37,054 nt of DNA from Syntrophaceae bacterium UBA5619. GTDB taxonomy: Bacteria > Desulfobacterota > Syntrophia > Syntrophales > UBA5619. This document shows positions 1-9,228 of this stretch, piece by piece. Where the stretch lies: contig DIKL01000054.1 of the NCBI GenBank assembly GCA_002424545.1, forward strand, positions 178 through 37,231, read 5' to 3'. How positions within the stretch are numbered: position 1 is the first letter of the stretch; every line of letters begins with the position of its first letter. Under the pieces are notes generated by a model. That model did not search any database. It was given only the letters and a program-made list of their open reading frames with translations, and was not told where the DNA came from. The translations under genes were made by a program, and so were the position numbers.

Positions 1-984
1 GACATCGACACGGGTGAATCCGTTGCCGCCGGAACTTCAGCGGCGCCTTCCTCTTATACGAAGGTATTCGGCGGCACGGTCGTGAAGTTGGCCGAGCAGG
101 ATCCGCGGATTGTTGCCATTACGGCGGCCATGTCCGAGGGAACGGGCCTTGACCGGTTCGCCGGAAAATTCCCCGCGCGGTTTTACGATGTCGGCATGGC
201 CGAGCAGCACGGGGTGACCTTCGCCGCCGGGTTGGCCACCCAGGGATTCGTGCCGATCGTTGCGATCTATTCCACCTTCATGCAACGGGCCTATGACCAG
301 GTGATCCACGATGTCTGTCTTCAGAAACTGCCGTTGGTCCTGGCGATGGACCGGGGCGGCTTCGTCGGGGCCGACGGCCCCACGCATCACGGCTTGTTCG
401 ACTTCGCCTTCCTGCGCACGGTCCCGAATCTGATCGTGATGGCGCCCAAGGACGAAAACGAACTCCAGCATATGCTGAAGACCGCCGTGGAGTGCGGCCT
501 CCCCGTATCGCTGCGCTATCCCCGGGGGAAAGGGATCGGCGTCCCGCTGGATGAGGCCCCCCGCGCCCTGCCGGTCGGGAAAGGGGAACTCCTCGTCAAC
601 CCGCCGGACGCCGCAATGGCCATCGTCGCGATCGGGTCCTGCGTGTATCCGGCCCTCGCCGCCGCCGAGACGCTGAAGGCGGAGGGAATACAGGTCCGGG
701 TCGTCAATGCCCGTTTCGTGAAGCCCCTGGATGCGGACCTGCTGTGCGAAACGGCGCGGGCGTGCAAGAGGATCGTGACCGTCGAGGAGAATGCGCTGAT
801 GGGGGGTTTTGGAAGCGCCGTTCTCGAGCTTTTTTCGGAAAAAGGCATCACTGACTTTTTTGTCCGGCGGCTCGGCATCCCCGACGAATTCGCCCCGCAG
901 GCCACCCAGAAGGAGCTCCGGAGGATGTACGGCATCGATGCGGACGGGATCGCCGGGGCCGTCCGCGATCTGGCCGGACGGTAA
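1..984 (+). CDS. dxs: 1-deoxy-D-xylulose-5-phosphate synthase, C-terminal part (5' end outside window)
   Basis: The open frame runs in from base 1, so the N-terminal thiamine-diphosphate domain lies outside the window. What remains is the transketolase pyrimidine-binding domain and the C-terminal domain. Diagnostic stretches are [16 protein letters not shown], which carries the conserved catalytic Glu, then [15 protein letters not shown] and RYPRG. The enzyme condenses pyruvate with glyceraldehyde-3-phosphate to DXP, the first step of the MEP isoprenoid pathway, in the cytoplasm. An ATG at 82 is internal and is not the real start. The gene is followed by tlyA and then by the last MEP enzyme, IspH, so both ends of the pathway lie in one cluster. 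Identification is very secure; only the 5' end is missing. Confidence 0.97.
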
Positions 985-1052
985 TTTGCGCCGTCCCGCG
1001 TTCGATGGGCTTTGCCGTCCCCTGCGCCGTCTTAAATGAAGTCCCGAAAAAC

Positions 1053-1814
1053 ATGGGAAAATTGTCCACCAAAATCCGTCTGGATTGCCTGTTGGTCGAA
1101 CGGGGGCTGGCGGAGAGCCGCTCCCGGGCGCAGGCGCTGATCCTTTCCGGGGCGGTCCTTGTCGGGGATCGCCCGGCGGACAAGGCGGGGATGGCCGTCG
1201 CGGCCGACGCGGAGATCCGGATCCGGGGCGGGGAAAACCCCTATGTCAGCCGGGGCGGCTTGAAGCTGCGGGGCGCCCTGGACGCCTTCGGTCTTTGCGT
1301 CCGGAATCGGGTCGCGCTCGACGTGGGGGCCTCGACCGGCGGCTTCACCGACTGCCTCCTGCAAGCCGGGGCAGCGAAGGTCTATGCCTTGGACGTCGGC
1401 TACGGCCAGCTCGCGTGGAAGCTCCGCGAGGATCCCCGGGTCGTCTGCATCGAACGAACCAACATCCGCCATTACGACGGCCGCGACATCCGCGAGCCGA
1501 TCGACATCGCGGTCATCGACGCTTCGTTCATCTCGCTCAGGCTGGTGGTCCCCTCCGTGCTGAAGCTGATCCCGGACGGGGCCCTGCTGCTGGCATTGGT
1601 CAAACCGCAGTTCGAGGTGGGCCGGGAAAACGTCGGCAAGGGCGGCGTCGTCCGGGATCCGGCGCTGCACGAACAGGTCGTCGCTGATCTGGAGGCCTTC
1701 TGCCGAGAGCGGGGCCTTTGGGTCCTGGGGCATTGCGCCTCACCGATCGACGGCCCGGCCGGAAACCGCGAATTCTTTCTTTATCTGCAAAAGCCGCGGG
1801 CGGCGGATTCCTGA
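1053..1814 (+). CDS. tlyA: TlyA family rRNA 2'-O-methyltransferase / hemolysin-like protein
   Basis: 253 aa from the ATG at 1053. An S4 RNA-binding domain occupies about residues 8-70, starting at RLDCLLVERGLAESRSRAQ. It is followed by an FtsJ-type methyltransferase fold with the SAM-binding motif DVGASTGGFTD at 90-100 and the later motifs VIDASFISL and LVKPQFEVG. The family methylates ribose in 16S and/or 23S rRNA with S-adenosylmethionine; the older hemolysin label is probably incidental. An in-frame ATG at 1005 would add 16 residues that do not resemble the family N-terminus, so 1053 is preferred. The gene sits 13 nt upstream of the IspH fusion, and tlyA beside dxs is a common bacterial arrangement. 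Confidence 0.92.
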   Translation: MGKLSTKIRLDCLLVERGLAESRSRAQALILSGAVLVGDRPADKAGMAVAADAEIRIRGGENPYVSRGGLKLRGALDAFGLCVRNRVALDVGASTGGFTDCLLQAGAAKVYALDVGYGQLAWKLREDPRVVCIERTNIRHYDGRDIREPIDIAVIDASFISLRLVVPSVLKLIPDGALLLALVKPQFEVGRENVGKGGVVRDPALHEQVVADLEAFCRERGLWVLGHCASPIDGPAGNREFFLYLQKPRAADS

Positions 1815-1827
1815 AGGGGGACGGGTC

Positions 1828-3573
1828 GTGGGGATAAAACTGGCTAAAACCGCCGGTTTCTGCATGGGGGTCAAGCGGGCCGTGGATGTGGTTCTCGACA
1901 TGGCCGGGAAAAAGAACGCGGGGGCCATCTACACCTACGGACCGCTGATCCACAATCCCCAGACGGTCGAGCTGCTCCGGAAGAGGGGCATCGTCCCGGT
2001 CCGCAGCCTGGATGAGTTCGACCAGGCCCCCCCGGGGGCGGCGATGGTGATCCGCGCCCACGGGATCTCGCTGGTCGAAAGAAGAAAGATCCGGGAGAAG
2101 GGCTTTCGGATCATCGACGCCACCTGCCCCAAGGTGGCCCATGTGCAGGCGATCATCCGCAAACACGCCGCCCGAGGATTTGCCATTCTGATTGCCGGGG
2201 ATCGGGAACACCCGGAGGTCAACGGTCTTCTCGGATTTGCCGGTGAGGCGGGAATGGTCCTCAGCGGGTCCGATGACGTGGATCGTCTTCCGGAGTTGCC
2301 GAAGGTGTGCGTCGTCGCGCAGACGACGCAAAGCCTGGAAGAATACGCCGCCATCGTCCGGCGGGTGAAGGAACGGTTTCCGGAGGCGGTCGTCTTCGAC
2401 ACGATCTGTGACTCCACGGAAACGAGACAGACCGAGATCAAGGCGCTCGCCGCCGAAACGGACGCCGTCATCATTATCGGCGGCCGAAACAGCGCAAACA
2501 CGAGGCGCCTGGCGGAGCTGGCGACCCTTCAGGGAAAACCCGCTTTCCATATCGAGGCTTCCAATGAACTCCAGACGATCGAAATCGAACCGTACCGCCG
2601 GATCGGCGTTTCCGCCGGGGCCTCGACCCCCAACTGGATCATCGACCGGGTGATGGACCATCTGACCGGCCGTATGGGCAAGCGGGAGGAATTTCTCCGG
2701 CGTCTTTTCAAGATCTGGGTCTTTGCCGTTCGCACGGATCTTTACTCCGCCATCGGCGCGGGCTGTCTGTCGTTGGCGGCCATGCTTCTTCAGGAGCTGC
2801 CGGTGAATCCTCTCCACATCCTGACGTCATCGCTGTACGTATACGCCATGCACGTTTTGAACCGCTTCATCAACCGAAAGGCCAGCAGCATCAGCTCCTT
2901 CCGCGAGGAGTCCTACCTCCTTCATGAAAAGATCTATATCACGATCGCGCTTTTTTCGATGATTCTCGCTCTCGGCGCCTCGCTGATCGCGGGGCCGGGA
3001 CCTTTCATTCTGCTGTTCATCATTTCCGTCGCTGGCGTCCTCTACAATACGCCGGTCCTGCCGGCGGGCTGGAGATTCCAGAGTCTGAAAGACATCCCCG
3101 GGTCGAAAAACATCTCCACGGCCATCGCCTGGGCATCCGTAACGGCGCTGTTGCCCTGGCTCGAGACCGGGCCGAAGCTTGCGCCGGGGGTCATGACGGC
3201 CTTCTTTTTTGTCGCCGGCCTGGTTTTTATCCGTTCCGCGCTGTCGGATATCCTCGATATCCAGAGCGACCGGTTGATCGGCCGGGAGACCATTCCCGTC
3301 CTGATCGGCGAGAAAAAAACCCTTGCGCTTCTGGAGGGGGTCTCCGTTTTGCTGTTTCTGCTGCTCTTCGCGGCCTATCCCGCCGGGTGGACGACTTCAA
3401 TCAGTTTTTTTCTGTTAACCTGTGTTTTTTATATATGGATTTGTTTCAAACTTTATGATAGAAGGTCCGGGTTTTCCGGGGTGGTGTTGGAAGGTCTGCT
3501 GGAGAGCGGTTATGTCATCGCGGGCATCGGCGCCCTGCTTTGGCTTTGGGCAACCGGGATTTTCGCCGCATGA
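1828..3573 (+). CDS. ispH: IspH (HMBPP reductase) fused to a UbiA-like prenyltransferase membrane domain
   Basis: 581 aa, GTG start preceded by a purine-rich GGGGGACGGG. Residues 1 to about 285 are a full IspH: the three cluster cysteines are Cys12 (GFCMGV), Cys100 (DATCPKV) and Cys194 (ICDSTETRQ), and the IHNP, RAHG and REHPEV histidine motifs and the closing GASTPNWII are present. IspH reduces HMBPP to IPP and DMAPP with a 4Fe-4S cluster. From about residue 300 the chain continues without a stop into roughly eight or nine hydrophobic helices like the UbiA superfamily. The second Asp-rich motif is intact (D474-x2-D477-x3-D481), but the place of the first, NDxxDxxxD, holds N345, N349 and S353. 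The membrane half may be a prenyltransferase acting on IspH-derived prenyl diphosphates, or may have lost that activity. IspH is certain; the role of the second half is not. Confidence 0.93.
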   Translation: MGIKLAKTAGFCMGVKRAVDVVLDMAGKKNAGAIYTYGPLIHNPQTVELLRKRGIVPVRSLDEFDQAPPGAAMVIRAHGISLVERRKIREKGFRIIDATCPKVAHVQAIIRKHAARGFAILIAGDREHPEVNGLLGFAGEAGMVLSGSDDVDRLPELPKVCVVAQTTQSLEEYAAIVRRVKERFPEAVVFDTICDSTETRQTEIKALAAETDAVIIIGGRNSANTRRLAELATLQGKPAFHIEASNELQTIEIEPYRRIGVSAGASTPNWIIDRVMDHLTGRMGKREEFLRRLFKIWVFAVRTDLYSAIGAGCLSLAAMLLQELPVNPLHILTSSLYVYAMHVLNRFINRKASSISSFREESYLLHEKIYITIALFSMILALGASLIAGPGPFILLFIISVAGVLYNTPVLPAGWRFQSLKDIPGSKNISTAIAWASVTALLPWLETGPKLAPGVMTAFFFVAGLVFIRSALSDILDIQSDRLIGRETIPVLIGEKKTLALLEGVSVLLFLLLFAAYPAGWTTSISFFLLTCVFYIWICFKLYDRRSGFSGVVLEGLLESGYVIAGIGALLWLWATGIFAA

Positions 3574-3585
3574 GCCCGGGGGGCA

Positions 3586-4176
3586 ATGATATTGAAACAG
3601 TGGAAAACGGTCGTTCCCGCCGTCCTCTTCTTGGCCATTTTGGGTTGCGGTGGGCTCCGGTATTCGGAAGTCTCGCCGGAAGCGCAGAATTTTCATCCCC
3701 GACGGATCGCGGTGCTGCCTGCCGACAGCAAGACTTTTGCGGAGGCCGGGAATGACATCGACCGTCTTTTCCACGAGGCGCTGAGCGAGCGGAAGTGGTT
3801 CGACAACGTGATCGGAGGCGAGGCCGTCGGTCGTCGTTTGAAATCGGATGGGTTGTTCCGACAGGCCGTCACGGATTATCTGACCAAACTGGAAAAGGTC
3901 AGTTTCTCCGATCCGGTGTTGAGCGGAACCCTTGGCGAGTTGACCGGCGCCGAAGCGCTGCTGCTGGTGCGGGTGGACTACTGGAACCATACGACGGAAA
4001 ACGACAACAAGATCGCCAAAGTCAGCCTCAGCATCCGGATGGTCGAGGCAAAAACGGGGAAGATCCTCTGGACGGCCGTTCACCACAAGATCAGAGAATA
4101 CCTGATCATCAAGCCGGCGCTTCCCGATGTGGCAAGGGATCTGATCCGTGAAATGATCGGTTACATGCCGCGCTGA
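3586..4176 (+). CDS. Putative outer-membrane lipoprotein, LpoB/CsgG/GNA1162-like
   Basis: 196 aa. The N-terminus is a lipoprotein signal: a basic start, a hydrophobic core VVPAVLFLAIL and a lipobox LAILGC with the acylated Cys at residue 21. The mature part has RRIAVLPADS near residue 40 and VSLSIRMVEAKTGKILW near the C-terminus, a pattern typical of periplasmic CsgG/LpoB/DUF799-type lipoproteins. No catalytic motif is visible. The gene starts 12 nt after the IspH-UbiA stop with a G-rich ribosome site, so it is probably cotranscribed. Function unknown; family assignment is by pattern only. Confidence 0.75.
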   Translation: MILKQWKTVVPAVLFLAILGCGGLRYSEVSPEAQNFHPRRIAVLPADSKTFAEAGNDIDRLFHEALSERKWFDNVIGGEAVGRRLKSDGLFRQAVTDYLTKLEKVSFSDPVLSGTLGELTGAEALLLVRVDYWNHTTENDNKIAKVSLSIRMVEAKTGKILWTAVHHKIREYLIIKPALPDVARDLIREMIGYMPR

Positions 4177-4216: not shown

Positions 4217-4438
4217 ATGAAGGAAGAAGTGCGGAAGGTCATCGACCGGATCAGGCCCAACCTCCAGGCGGACGGCGGCGATGTGGAATTGGTTGACGTG
4301 GGCGACGACGGCGTGGTCAAGGTGAAGCTGACGGGCGCTTGTCACAGCTGCCCGATGGCCCAGATGACCCTGAAGAACGGGATCGAAAAATTTCTGAAAG
4401 AGGAAGTCCCTGCCGTCAAATCGGTGGTTTCCGTTTAG
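4217..4438 (+). CDS. Nfu-type (NifU C-terminal domain) Fe-S cluster carrier
   Basis: 73 aa, consisting only of the NifU C-terminal domain. The CxxC motif is Cys42-His-Ser-Cys45 in LTGACHSCPMAQMTLKNGIE, after the typical opening IRPNLQADGGDVELVDV. Such proteins hold and deliver a 4Fe-4S cluster to apo-enzymes. A GGGGAGG lies about 10 nt upstream of the ATG. The position between the 4Fe-4S enzyme IspH and a ferredoxin suggests service to those proteins, though Nfu carriers are usually general. Identification is firm. Confidence 0.93.
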   Translation: MKEEVRKVIDRIRPNLQADGGDVELVDVGDDGVVKVKLTGACHSCPMAQMTLKNGIEKFLKEEVPAVKSVVSV

Positions 4439-4491: not shown

Positions 4492-4671
4492 ATGGCGTAT
4501 ATTATTACCGATGAATGCATTGCATGTGGTTCCTGTCAGGACGAATGTCCGGTGGAGGCGATCAGCGAGGGGGATGACAAGTATGTCATCGATGCCAAAC
4601 TCTGTACGGATTGCGGGGCCTGCGCGGAGCAGTGCCCGGTCGAGGCGATCACACCCGGGGAAGAGAAGTAG
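4492..4671 (+). CDS. 2[4Fe-4S] ferredoxin
   Basis: 59 aa, clostridial-type ferredoxin. Two cysteine sets are complete: Cys9, 12, 15 and 19 (CIACGSCQDECP) and Cys38, 41, 44 and 48 (CTDCGACAEQCP). The two halves repeat CPVEAI, showing the internal duplication. It is a low-potential one-electron carrier in the cytoplasm and a plausible donor to IspH. An AAGGAGAAG ribosome site lies just before the ATG at 4492; a longer in-frame start at 4339 overlaps the nfu gene and is unlikely. A strong terminator follows. Confidence 0.96.
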   Translation: MAYIITDECIACGSCQDECPVEAISEGDDKYVIDAKLCTDCGACAEQCPVEAITPGEEK

Positions 4672-4748: not shown

Positions 4749-4851
4749 CAGGATGGCGCGATCCGGCAAACGGGGTTGTGACGCGGTCAAGAACCCCCTC
4801 TTGTTTCCCGGACAGCCGGCCTTGACCGGATACGCGGGGAAAGATGCAGGG

Positions 4852-5511
4852 ATGAAAAGATTCATCACATTCGAGGGCATCGAGGGGTGCGGCAAGACGA
4901 CCCAGATCCGGCTGGCCGAGACCTGGTTCCGGGAGCGCGACCTGCCGGTTCTGGCGACCGCGGAGCCGGGGGGCACGCCACTCGGCGACCGGATCCGGGA
5001 GATTCTGCTCAATCGCGGATCCCTGACCATCGGCGCCGAGGCGGAGCTGCTGCTGTTTGCCGCCGCGCGCGCCCAACACGTGCGGGAGATCATTTTCCCC
5101 GCTCTTGAAGCGGGGCGGTGGGTTCTCTGCGACCGTTTTTCGGACGCAACCCTGGCCTACCAGGGTTTCGGCCGGGGGTTGGACATTGGGTTCATTCGGA
5201 CGCTGAACGCCTTCTCTTCGCCGACGCTGACGCCGGAGCGGACGTTTCTGTTCGATCTCCCCGTGGAAACCGGTCTGGCGCGCGCGGAACAACGGGCGGC
5301 CGGCATGCGCCCGGAGGCGGCGGAGGACCGTTTCGAAAGGGAAGAAAAAGCCTTTCATCTGAGGATTCAGGAAGGATATCGATCTCTTGCGGCGGCGGAG
5401 CCGGAACGCTACCGGATCATTGAAGGCGGGACCGATGTCGAGACGGTCCGGCGTGAGGTCTGCCGTCACCTGACGGCGCTGCTCGAAAAATCCCCTGCCG
5501 GAGGGAAATGA
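4852..5511 (+). CDS. tmk: Thymidylate kinase
   Basis: 219 aa from the ATG at 4852. The P-loop is EGIEGCGKTT (residues 8-17), followed by the substrate motif DRFSDATLAYQGFGRG, which holds the DR pair of the family, and a lid-region arginine segment RAAGMRPEAAEDRFE. It phosphorylates dTMP to dTDP with ATP in the cytoplasm. The frame is open further upstream (in-frame ATG at 4753), but those residues fall in the region just after the terminator and do not match the family N-terminus. It is followed after 4 nt by holB, a very common bacterial neighbour. Confidence 0.95.
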   Translation: MKRFITFEGIEGCGKTTQIRLAETWFRERDLPVLATAEPGGTPLGDRIREILLNRGSLTIGAEAELLLFAAARAQHVREIIFPALEAGRWVLCDRFSDATLAYQGFGRGLDIGFIRTLNAFSSPTLTPERTFLFDLPVETGLARAEQRAAGMRPEAAEDRFEREEKAFHLRIQEGYRSLAAAEPERYRIIEGGTDVETVRREVCRHLTALLEKSPAGGK

Positions 5512-5515
5512 CGGT

Positions 5516-6481
5516 ATGGGATTCCAGGGGATCTACGGCCACTCCAAACCGGTCTCCATCCTGAAAAACGCGATGGCCCGCGACCGGATCGCCCACGCCC
5601 TGCTCTTCCACGGAATGGAGGGGATTGGGAAGAGGACCACGGCGTCCATCCTCGCCAGGGCGGTCAACTGCAAAGCGGAAGATCCGCCTTGCGATGCCTG
5701 TGCCTCCTGCCGCAAGGCGGAGCATCGCAACCATCCCAACATCATCACGATCCGGGCGGAAGGGCAGTTTATCAAGATCTCGGCCGTCAAGGAACTCCAG
5801 TCGCGGATGACCGTCCGGCCCGTGGAGGGGAAACGGGTTTTCATCATCGAGGAGGCGGACCGGTTGAACGCAGCCGCGGCCAACGCGCTGCTCAAAACCC
5901 TGGAAGAGCCGTCCCCGGGAAATATCCTTCTGTTGACGACCGCCCGTTCGCATGCCCTTCCGATGACGATCCTTTCCCGCTGCCAGCATTTGCGCTTCAC
6001 GCCGCTGGCCCGTGAGGAGGTTTCCCGTTTCCTGAAAGAAAAGGAGGGGCTGGATGACGTCGCGGCGGAAATCCTGGCCGCCTCGTCCGGCGGCAGTATC
6101 GGCCGGGCGATCGAGATGAAACGGGAGGACTACCTCGCGCGACGCGACGGAATCCTGGATCACCTCGCACAGGACGATCCGGCCGATCTGCTCAAAAGGA
6201 TCGCGCTGGCCGGCCGTTTCGGGAAGGAGCGGGAGGAGATTCTCGAAGGCCTCCGGATCCTCCGGGTCGGTTACCGGGACAGCCTGATTTTCCGCGAGAC
6301 CCGGGAACGGGAGAGACTGATGTTCCGGGACCGGGCCGGGATGATCGAGACGATCGCGGATCGCCTGTCGGGTCGCGATCTTCTGCGCAACATCGCCGCG
6401 GTCGAGTCGGCGATGGGCGCCATCGCCCGGAATGCCAATAAGTCGTTGACTTTGGAGGCCATGCTGATTAAGCTCGCCTGA
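5516..6481 (+). CDS. holB: DNA polymerase III delta' subunit
   Basis: 321 aa, clamp-loader AAA+ subunit. It opens with the typical FQGIYGHSKPVSILKNAM and a Walker A-like GMEGIGKRT (33-41). A zinc-binding set Cys52, 59, 62 and 65 follows. The box VFIIEEADRLNAAAANALLKTLEEP and the sensor 1-like ILSRCQHLRF are present. Delta' works with DnaX and delta to load the beta clamp. The order tmk-holB-ricT is conserved in many bacteria. The start ATG at 5516 lies 4 nt after the tmk stop, so translation is probably coupled. Confidence 0.93.
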   Translation: MGFQGIYGHSKPVSILKNAMARDRIAHALLFHGMEGIGKRTTASILARAVNCKAEDPPCDACASCRKAEHRNHPNIITIRAEGQFIKISAVKELQSRMTVRPVEGKRVFIIEEADRLNAAAANALLKTLEEPSPGNILLLTTARSHALPMTILSRCQHLRFTPLAREEVSRFLKEKEGLDDVAAEILAASSGGSIGRAIEMKREDYLARRDGILDHLAQDDPADLLKRIALAGRFGKEREEILEGLRILRVGYRDSLIFRETRERERLMFRDRAGMIETIADRLSGRDLLRNIAAVESAMGAIARNANKSLTLEAMLIKLA

Positions 6482-6511
6482 GGAAAAATCACCATCCGGG
6501 GGTAAGTCGGT

Positions 6512-7312
6512 TTGAAAAATGTCGTCGGCGTCAAATTCAAAAAGGAAGGAAAAATCTATACCTTCCATGCGGCGGATCTCCCGTTGAAGAAGAACGATCC
6601 CGTCGTGGTCGTTACGGACAACGGCTCGGCGATCGGAACGGCGGTGACGGAGGTCCGGGCCGTCCCGCTGGAACAGTTGCCCGCCAACCTGAAGGACGTC
6701 TTGCGGTTGGCGACGGAGGAGGATTTCCGGACCCGGGAAAACAACCAGAAATTGGAACGGGAGGCGATGCAGTTCTGCGTCAAAAGGATCGCGGAACGGA
6801 AGCTTCCGATGAAGATGATCGATGTGGAGTGCCTCTTCGACAGGAGCAAGATGCTCTTCTCGTTTGCCGCGGAAAGCCGCGTGGATTTCCGGGATCTGGT
6901 GAAGGATCTCGTGCAGCGTTTCCGGACCCGCATCGAACTTAGGCAGATCAGCGCAAGGCAGGAGGCGCGGATCGTCAAGGGGCTCGGAATCTGCGGACGC
7001 GAGGTCTGCTGCGCGACGCTGCTGCACAGCCTCGACCGGGTGTCGGTCAAGATGGCCAAAGAGCAGAACATGTCGCTGAACCCCGAGAAGATCTCCGGCC
7101 TCTGCGGGCGATTGATGTGCTGCCTGAGCTTCGAATACGAGGCGTACGCCGATCTGAAAAGGGACATGCCCAAGTGCGGCAAAATGGTCCAGACCCCCGA
7201 AGGGCGGGGGAAAGTGATCCGGCAGAACGCCCTCAAGGGGGAGGTGGTCGTGATCCTCGAACAGGGGAAGGAGACCACGTTCAAGGCCAGGGACGTCCAG
7301 CGGGACAAATAG
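6512..7312 (+). CDS. ricT: PSP1-domain protein RicT (YaaT-like)
   Basis: 266 aa, TTG start with GGGGGT upstream and no better ATG nearby. The PSP1 domain covers most of the chain. Six conserved cysteines are grouped as Cys161, 166 and 167 (GICGREVCC) and Cys198, 203 and 204 (GLCGRLMCC), as in RicT/YaaT. In Bacillus the homologue is part of the RicAFT complex, which carries Fe-S clusters and influences RNase Y-dependent RNA maturation; the role here is inferred from that. It lies between holB and metG, a classical context for this family. Confidence 0.92.
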   Translation: MKNVVGVKFKKEGKIYTFHAADLPLKKNDPVVVVTDNGSAIGTAVTEVRAVPLEQLPANLKDVLRLATEEDFRTRENNQKLEREAMQFCVKRIAERKLPMKMIDVECLFDRSKMLFSFAAESRVDFRDLVKDLVQRFRTRIELRQISARQEARIVKGLGICGREVCCATLLHSLDRVSVKMAKEQNMSLNPEKISGLCGRLMCCLSFEYEAYADLKRDMPKCGKMVQTPEGRGKVIRQNALKGEVVVILEQGKETTFKARDVQRDK

Positions 7313-7323
7313 AAAGGTTGACC

Positions 7324-9228
7324 ATGGAAGACGCTTATTACATCACGACACCGATCTACTATGTGAACGCCTCGCCCCACATCGGGCACGCCTATACGAC
7401 GATCGTCGCCGACGTGCTGGCGCGCTACCATCGGCTGCGCGGCGACCGGACCTTTTTTGTCACCGGAACGGATGAGCACGGCGACAAGATCGCCGAGGCG
7501 GCCGCGAAGGGAAACGTCACCCCGCAGGAATTCGCCGACCGGATCAGCACCCAATTCCGCTCCCTCTGGCCGGAGCTTGCGGTCGAGAACGATTACTTTA
7601 TCCGGACCACCGACGCGAACCATGTCGAAACGGTCCGGCAAATCCTCCGGAAGGTTTATGACGCGGGGGATATCTACTTCGGCCAGTACGAAGGTTTCTA
7701 CTGCGTGGGCTGCGAGCGATTCTACATGGAGAAGGAGCTCATCGACGGCAAGTGCCCGCAGCACGAAACGCTTCCCGAACACCGCAAGGAGAGCAACTAC
7801 TTCTTCCGGATGGGAAAATACCAGGATTGGCTCATCGGACACATCGAGGCGAATCCGGATTTCATCCGGCCCGAGAGGTACCGCAACGAGGCGCTCGCAT
7901 TCCTGCGCGATCCGCTGGAGGATCTCTGCATCTCCCGGCCCAAGAGCCGGCTCACCTGGGGGATCACGCTGCCCTTCGATGAAAACTATGTGACCTACGT
8001 CTGGTTCGACGCGCTGATCAACTACCTCACCGCGATCGGCTACCCGGACGGCGCAAACTATAAAGCCTACTGGCCGGCGGCGCAGCATCTGATCGCCAAG
8101 GATATTCTCAAACCGCATGGGATCTACTGGCCGACGATGCTCAAGGCGGCGGGGATCGAACCGTACCGGCACTTGAATGTTCACGGCTACTGGAACGTCG
8201 ATCAGAGCAAGATGTCCAAGAGCCTCGGGAACGTCATCCGGCCCCTCGACCTGAAGGACAAGTACGGCCTCGACCCGTTTCGCTATTTCTTGCTCCGCGA
8301 CATGGTCTTCGGCCTCGATTCGAGCTTCAGCGAGGAGGCCTTCGTCCAGCGGATCAATTCGGATCTGGCCAACGACCTGGGCAACCTCGTCAGCCGGACG
8401 ATGCAGATGGCCGTGAAATACGGAAACGGGCGGATTCCGGCGCCCACGGCTGCCGCCGACGAAGATCGCATCCTCCCGGAGACGGCTTTCCGGACCGCGG
8501 CCGAAGTGCAGGCCTGCTTCGAAAATCTCGGTCTCCACAAGGCGCTGATCGCGATCTGGGAATTCATCAACGTGACGAACAAGTACATCGTCGAGCGGGA
8601 ACCCTGGGTTCTGGCGAAGGATCCGGCCAACCGCCCCCGCCTGGAGACGATCCTCTACAACCTGTTGGAGGCGCTCCGGATCACGGCCGTCCTGATCACC
8701 CCGTTCATGCCGGGGTCCGCCGCGAAGATCCTGGCGCAGCTCGGGATCGCCGATCCGGCGGCTCAAAACTTTGAAACCCTGCGGGTCTGGGGAGGGCTGC
8801 CGGCCGGAAATGAACTGAAGCGGGGAGAATCGCTGTTCCCGCGCGTCGAGATCAAGCCGGCTGAGGTCCCGCCGGCGCCGGCAAAGGCCGAGGTCACGCC
8901 GATCAAACCGGAGATTTCCTACGAGGAGTTCGAGAAGATCGACCTGCGGGCGGCGAAGGTCCTCGCCGCCGAACGGGTCCCCAAATCGAGCAAGCTGCTG
9001 AAGCTGACCGTCGAGATCGACGGCGAACGGTCGATCGTCGCGGGAATGGGCAAGGATTACACGCCCGAGGAGATCGTCGGCAAGACCATCGTCGTCGTCG
9101 CCAATCTCAAGCCGGCAAAGCTGATGGGAATCGAGTCCCGCGGCATGCTGCTCGCCTCGGACACGGAAGAGGGCCTCACGCTTCTCGGCTTCGACCGCCC
9201 GCCGAAGACCGGCGCCAAGGTCCATTGA
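7324..9228 (+). CDS. metG: Methionyl-tRNA synthetase
   Basis: 634 aa. Class I aminoacyl-tRNA synthetase with the HIGH motif in ASPHIGHAYTTI at residues 19-22 and KMSKS at 296-300. A zinc knuckle is formed by Cys127, Cys130, Cys144 and His147 (YCVGCERFY to GKCPQH). The C-terminal 110 residues (ISYEEFEKIDLRAAKV onward) are a fused tRNA-binding, OB-fold domain. The start is the ATG at 7324, 12 nt after ricT; the frame is open upstream but overlaps ricT. The gene ends in a strong terminator. Confidence 0.97.
   Translation: MEDAYYITTPIYYVNASPHIGHAYTTIVADVLARYHRLRGDRTFFVTGTDEHGDKIAEAAAKGNVTPQEFADRISTQFRSLWPELAVENDYFIRTTDANHVETVRQILRKVYDAGDIYFGQYEGFYCVGCERFYMEKELIDGKCPQHETLPEHRKESNYFFRMGKYQDWLIGHIEANPDFIRPERYRNEALAFLRDPLEDLCISRPKSRLTWGITLPFDENYVTYVWFDALINYLTAIGYPDGANYKAYWPAAQHLIAKDILKPHGIYWPTMLKAAGIEPYRHLNVHGYWNVDQSKMSKSLGNVIRPLDLKDKYGLDPFRYFLLRDMVFGLDSSFSEEAFVQRINSDLANDLGNLVSRTMQMAVKYGNGRIPAPTAAADEDRILPETAFRTAAEVQACFENLGLHKALIAIWEFINVTNKYIVEREPWVLAKDPANRPRLETILYNLLEALRITAVLITPFMPGSAAKILAQLGIADPAAQNFETLRVWGGLPAGNELKRGESLFPRVEIKPAEVPPAPAKAEVTPIKPEISYEEFEKIDLRAAKVLAAERVPKSSKLLKLTVEIDGERSIVAGMGKDYTPEEIVGKTIVVVANLKPAKLMGIESRGMLLASDTEEGLTLLGFDRPPKTGAKVH

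Follow-up and report, generated by a model that had tools for sequence, protein, structure and literature searches.

An IspH–UbiA fusion in Syntrophaceae bacterium UBA5619 and across its phylum, with a recast first metal motif and a conserved pocket in its predicted membrane domain

The DNA analysed here is a stretch of 37,054 nucleotides from Syntrophaceae bacterium UBA5619 (Desulfobacterota, Syntrophales; GenBank assembly GCA_002424545.1, contig DIKL01000054.1, positions 178 to 37,231 of the forward strand), referred to below, at its full length, as the window. It carries a gene in which IspH, the 4-hydroxy-3-methylbut-2-enyl diphosphate (HMBPP) reductase that catalyses the final step of isoprenoid-precursor synthesis in bacteria, is joined in frame to a C-terminal domain of the UbiA superfamily. 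This fusion had been proposed in an earlier reading of the letters alone (the sequence-only reading), and we followed it in a sample of 395 genomes from the phylum of the window, searched with the UbiA half at an E-value threshold of 0.001. The UbiA half was matched in 159 of these genomes, some of the weak matches being separate UbiAs; 112 loci out of the 159 matching genomes, picked for score and spread, were read. Together with the window they form an alignment of 113 rows, 16 from the order of the window (Syntrophales) and 97 from outside it. A second set of 121 rows comprises the window and its 120 closest matches listed. The features of the gene, in window coordinates, are as follows.

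1828..3573, + strand: IspH–UbiA fusion gene, an open frame of 581 amino acids with a GTG start
1828..2670, + strand: IspH (HMBPP reductase) domain, residues 1–281
1861..1863, + strand: codon of Cys12, Fe–S ligand (Cys in 113 of 113 rows)
2125..2127, + strand: codon of Cys100, Fe–S ligand (Cys in 113 of 113 rows)
2407..2409, + strand: codon of Cys194, Fe–S ligand (Cys in 112 of 113 rows, one gap)
2665..2715, + strand: short join leading from IspH into the first helix of UbiA (residues 280–296), without a conserved internal Met
2683..3573, + strand: predicted UbiA-fold membrane domain, residues 286–581
2737..2739, + strand: codon of Asp304 in helix 1 (Asp in all 16 rows of the order, Asn in 73 of the 97 others)
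2860..2886, + strand: motif 1, with the canonical Asn345 and with Asn349 and Ser353, where Asp is lost
3247..3270, + strand: motif 2, with Asp474, Asp477 and Asp481

The fusion is real: an intact IspH continues, in one frame, into a UbiA-fold domain. In a Pfam search of the 581-residue protein, residues 3–279 correspond to LYTB (E = 2.1e-89) and residues 314–545 to UbiA (E = 4.4e-12, 46.3 bits for a cut-off of 34.2). The IspH half passes the curated family threshold of TIGR00216 (274.6 bits against a cut-off of 187.85) and matches the IspH structure 3dnf (E = 2.6e-61), which we take to be an Aquifex-type enzyme; all three Fe–S cysteines of IspH are present, so that the complete IspH read from the sequence is borne out. 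The second half belongs to the UbiA superfamily by fold and profile, as had also been proposed, but is not a canonical active-site UbiA; membership in a non-UbiA family is excluded by the predicted UbiA fold.

IspH and UbiA share one frame in all 112 loci read, as in the window, and none of these loci has them as separate genes. The 120 matches listed cover 97–100% of the query at 62–98% identity and contain both Pfam domains; because they carry both domains near full length, the frame cannot be explained by a chance joining of two genes, by a lost stop codon or by a frameshift at this position. Six truncated loci were read besides the 112: both parts lie in one frame in three of them (L295, L296 and L297), two (L292 and L294) end at contig ends and L293 has its parts in different frames. 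The frame is broken in two of the six, namely L293 and, within IspH, L295. The weak matches L145 and L146 are distant, separate UbiAs. A scan of named genomes yielded 366 relatives; the best 80 were retained, a set that overlaps the 395-genome sample. The one-frame fusion is found in 78 of these best 80, and the other two begin at a contig end. Their record titles point to Desulfobacterota or carry wider names such as Proteobacteria; matches close to the window are named Syntrophales, and Smithella is among the more distant ones. Searching with the UbiA half on its own retrieved 114 proteins, many of them on short contigs with a partial IspH domain or an IspH name; others lie on long contigs (e.g., P0129, P0140 and P0201) and may represent genes that are broken or split.

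Of 80 fusion genomes, not all of them complete, 79 yielded no IspH besides the fusion. A match to IspH over the cut-off is present in all 80 fusion genomes and is single in 78; the two IspH stretches of G355 belong to one frame. In G271, a second IspH (C32:101271-102086) lies inside a frame of 912 amino acids, beside the IspH–UbiA fusion of that genome, and is possibly another IspH fusion. The join between the two halves is nearly constant. From P268 of IspH to A311 of UbiA there are 42–45 residues in 111 of the 113 rows and 50 in the two others, and residues 280–296 have the same length in all 121 close rows. Residue 283 is Leu in 59, Gln in 30, Met in 22 and Arg in 6 of these 121 rows; a separate internal start at Met283 is therefore unlikely.

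We compared the second half with the structurally studied AfUbiA. According to the account in PMC4106721, Mg is bound by N68 and D72 of motif 1 and by D198 and D202 of motif 2, D76 acting indirectly, whereas Y139 lies close to the cleaved bond and R22 and K146 hold the diphosphate. The same source reports that binding of geranyl diphosphate (GPP) was abolished by Ala at four of six residues tested, D198A and D202A being milder, and that the equivalents of N68, D72, D198 and D202 are each required in EcMenA. The window was mapped onto AfUbiA by motif positions and by aligning the fusions together with 30 canonical UbiAs from the same genomes; N345, Y406, K421, D477, D481, G485, P490 and G494 are common to both in this alignment. 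A profile–profile alignment with these 30 proteins is weak (63% probability) and starts at residue 343, so that the mapping of residue 304 to helix 1 is uncertain.

In this mapping, Asn345 corresponds to N68 and is unchanged, whereas D72 is replaced by Asn349 and D76 by Ser353; both Asp positions of the NDXXDXXXD signature with its Mg ligands are thus replaced in the window. The sequence-only reading had described motif 1 as degraded at three positions, which holds for Asn349 and Ser353 but not for Asn345, a normal Asn of the family. It had also called motif 2 intact. The DXXXD motif is indeed complete in the window (D477 = D198, D481 = D202), but residue 477 is Asp in only 62 of the 113 rows and 8 of the 16 from the order. 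D474 adds one more acidic position, with D or E in 110 of the 113 rows.

The alteration of motif 1 is stable close to the window, with Asn349 in 117 and Ser353 in 118 of the 121 close rows. Within the order, Asp349 is retained by only two sequences (L040 and L044) and missing in 14 of 16, which have Asn (7), Thr (2), Gly (2), Ser (2) or Ala (1); site 349 stands at the 82nd percentile of variability. On the tree, the state of Asp349 requires at least nine changes. Fourteen pocket and motif residues are invariant in all 16 sequences of the order, namely H342, N345, R346, Y406, P424, G425, K427, W435, D474, Q479, D481, E487, T488 and E559; most of them are also found in 121 of the 121 close rows, D481 in 120. 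G494, T488, G485, W435, D481, R469, P424, H342 and Y406 are each conserved in at least 96% of the 113 rows.

Most fused IspHs form one group in a quick IspH tree, computed without two fragmentary unfused rows (L287 and L288). This tree contains seven changes between fused and unfused labels, at least three of them forced by starred branches, and places five fused rows together with 20 unfused ones, a pattern compatible with a single origin of the fusion as well as with several. L264 stands in it as an unfused IspH, its long frame extending upstream only. The unfused IspHs of L289 and L290 occur in lineages beside or among fused relatives, and these two have probably lost the UbiA domain.

Upstream and downstream of the fusion, the first 4671 bases of the window hold a dxs–tlyA–fusion–lipoprotein–nfu–ferredoxin cluster that is conserved within the order of the window.

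82..984, + strand: C-terminal part of dxs, encoding 1-deoxy-D-xylulose 5-phosphate (DXP) synthase; the frame is open to the first base of the window, so the gene starts upstream of it
1005..1814, + strand: tlyA-type rRNA methyltransferase (Pfam FtsJ and S4; TIGR00478 239 bits, cut-off 185.8)
3586..4176, + strand: putative lipoprotein (weak GNA1162/LpoB similarity, under the cut-off)
4217..4438, + strand: NifU-like Fe–S protein (Nfu), 73 amino acids (Pfam NifU, E = 2.6e-30)
4492..4671, + strand: two-cluster 4Fe–4S ferredoxin, 59 amino acids (Pfam Fer4)

All 15 relatives from the order have, on the strand of the fusion, a homologue of the lipoprotein gene at most 100 bases after it, Nfu 637–817 bases downstream and the ferredoxin 905–1138 bases downstream; tlyA lies upstream in 15 of 15 and dxs in 14 of 15. 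Outside the order, a match to Nfu was found in one and a match to the ferredoxin in three of the 97 loci, none at these positions, the downstream view being limited in some of these loci by contig ends. IspH is a 4Fe–4S enzyme that receives electrons from ferredoxin- or flavodoxin-type donors, and for this reason the Nfu–ferredoxin cluster plausibly serves IspH in this lineage.

No candidate for a functional neighbour of the fusion across the phylum turned out to be general among the 105 loci counted (eight of the 113 were dropped, their fusion having been missed by the gene-picking step). A family 2 glycosyltransferase occurs at +1 in 19 of the 105 loci (e.g., L125:4537-5430), a dihydrouridine synthase at −1 in 16 and a phosphorylase at −2 in six (e.g., L067:4403-5344), the last with a similarity to HpnG below threshold (71.8 bits against a cut-off of 187.1). 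Further downstream in the window, positions 4753-9228 encode a thymidylate kinase, a DNA polymerase III delta-type subunit, a PSP1-domain protein and a methionyl-tRNA synthetase.

The explanation that we favour, tentatively, is an IspH bound to the membrane, with a UbiA pocket that has kept the ability to bind a ligand but has no canonical metal chemistry in this lineage. The HMBPP reductase of the cell would be kept at the membrane by its C-terminal UbiA-fold domain, and its IspH half would produce isopentenyl diphosphate (IPP) and dimethylallyl diphosphate (DMAPP). Such tethering, at a predicted membrane location, is plausible because the fusion is nearly always the sole IspH found. In the lineage of the window, the neighbouring Nfu probably helps to provide the 4Fe–4S cluster of IspH, and the neighbouring ferredoxin is the probable source of its electrons. 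The UbiA half would offer a pocket, probably for an isoprenoid (di)phosphate or a lipid, near the site where IspH releases its products; a different substrate, as considered in the sequence-only reading, is possible. Since the first metal site is recast, canonical prenyl transfer has probably been lost in the order, or altered in its metal chemistry, and the variation of D477 and K421 within the order leaves full canonical activity unsupported.

Several observations weigh against this explanation. According to PMC4106721, AfUbiA no longer bound GPP after the D72A change and EcMenA was inactivated by the equivalent one, so that a pocket lacking Asp349 need not bind a prenyl diphosphate. Within the order (n = 16), residue 477 is Asp in 8, Glu in 6, Asn in 1 and Gly in 1, and residue 421 is Lys in 8, Arg in 7 and Gly in 1. 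The ratio of nonsynonymous to synonymous change (dN/dS) in UbiA relative to that in IspH is 2.4–3.9 in three overlapping pairs of the order that have one sequence in common, a hint of relaxation of the UbiA half; the 11 pairs with Asp349 that gave a value have ratios of 0.6–2.4, all below those three. The variable D477 and K421 and this hint slightly lower our confidence. Expression of the fusion was attempted in 2015 (PMC4746011), without success. Finally, the UbiA domain is degraded in L291 and absent in L289 and L290, beside an IspH that persists, which fits a dispensable anchor.

A pure anchor or scaffold that binds nothing and simply holds IspH at the membrane is accordingly one alternative, unlikely but credible. 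The 14 invariant pocket and motif residues are more than such an anchor requires, and distance ratios reveal no faster evolution of the UbiA half after loss of Asp349 than in groups that keep it. An anchor-only role, which the sequence-only reading had considered, is thereby weakened for this lineage.

The UbiA half could also be an active Mg-dependent prenyltransferase that transfers DMAPP or a longer chain to a non-quinone acceptor, with Asp349 replaced by another acid, such as Asp304 in the window and Asp353 elsewhere; we regard this as unlikely but as credible as the anchor. N345, Y406 and D481 are retained in 104 (92%), 108 and 110 of the 113 rows, and outside the order Asp349 is present in 80 of 97 rows, the others having Gly (8), Glu (4) or other residues (five). 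Clades with Gly349 frequently have Asp353; in the named set, which is biased by the search motifs, Gly349 occurs in 48 of 78 and Asp353 in 42 of 78. An acid is found at 304, 349 or 353 in 107 of 113 rows, both motif-1 acids in six, and both as Asp in three. Compensation for the lost Asp349 by an acid at 304 or 353, appealing by these counts, is however unsupported with tree control: in seven independent pairs, the second trait differs in 0–2. Six of the 113 rows have none of the three acids, D477 is variable as given above, and a basic residue of the Arg22 type is not conserved at 301–304.

It is improbable, though worth stating, that the UbiA half acts as a product sensor or gate of the methylerythritol phosphate (MEP) pathway, binding a prenyl diphosphate or lipid in its recast pocket and tuning the fused IspH through the near-constant join; it would then be, by analogy, the bacterial parallel to UBIAD1 and its action on HMG-CoA reductase.

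An ordinary menaquinone or ubiquinone prenyltransferase (MenA, MqnP or UbiA), incidentally fused, would have the predicted UbiA fold and the second Asp motif, but is very unlikely. More than one UbiA match is present in 78 of the 80 fusion genomes, and the best score against the NCBIfam quinone prenyltransferase equivalogs, of MenA type, is 18.7 bits for a cut-off of 277. Among the 16 genomes of the order, MqnA/D are found in two and MenD over the cut-off in two others; the remaining 12 have neither, apart from a fragment of MenD at the end of a contig in G130, and in the genome of the window itself, 88.5% complete, MqnA/D and MenD were not over the cut-off. Genome G206 has no UbiA match besides the fusion. 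These 12 genomes and G206 make quinone prenylation an unlikely role of the fusion. An assembly or frameshift artefact has nothing in the window to suggest it and, despite the broken frames of L293 and L295 among the truncated loci, is refuted by the conserved fused relatives to the point of being negligible.

If the favoured explanation is correct, much of one phylum relies for its isoprenoid precursors on an enzyme tethered to the membrane, and this IspH is joined to a pocket without a residue that a studied relative needs for binding prenyl diphosphates. Clades with Asp349, with Glu349, with Gly349 and Asp353, with no motif-1 acid, with a degraded domain and with no domain form a natural series, in which anchoring, binding and catalysis in UbiA proteins can be separated and which could settle the purpose of the fusion published in 2015.

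The IspH–UbiA architecture itself is not new. Rao et al. (2015; PMC4746011) described 47 IspH–UbiA ‘Rosetta stone’ sequences, mainly from Desulfobacterales and all from sulfate-reducing anaerobes, with a C-terminal UbiA-like domain of unknown function containing two DXXXD sites; they suggested a membrane localization of IspH, and expression was unsuccessful. In the open-access library searched, the only follow-up that we found is a reference-list citation in a 2025 paper. The window has the same domain order as the fusions of Rao et al., IspH with a C-terminal UbiA in one frame, but, compared by their description, only the second of the two DXXXD sites. Beyond that account, the fusion is traced here through the phylum, where it is nearly always the sole IspH found and its UbiA domain is in places degraded or missing; the present analysis adds the phylum-wide extent, the sole-IspH status, the near-constant join, the recast motif 1, the gene cluster and the decay of the domain. 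The IspH–RPS1 fusions mentioned in the same paper likewise combine IspH with a C-terminal partner, which is however ribosomal protein S1, and occur in other groups such as clostridia. The window resembles AfUbiA and ApUbiA (4tq3–4tq6, 4od4 and 4od5) in fold and in the equivalents of N68, Y139, D198 and D202; it differs from them by lacking the equivalents of D72 and D76 and a conserved Arg22-type residue at 301–304, and by the subfamily residues H342, PGSK (424–427), R469, Q479 and E487. HMG-CoA reductase (HMGCR) is unrelated to IspH. The HMGCR–UBIAD1 complex (PMC9314443) offers an analogy only: there too, a UbiA-family protein binds a reductase that controls an isoprenoid pathway, but the two are separate eukaryotic proteins and the pathway is that of mevalonate.
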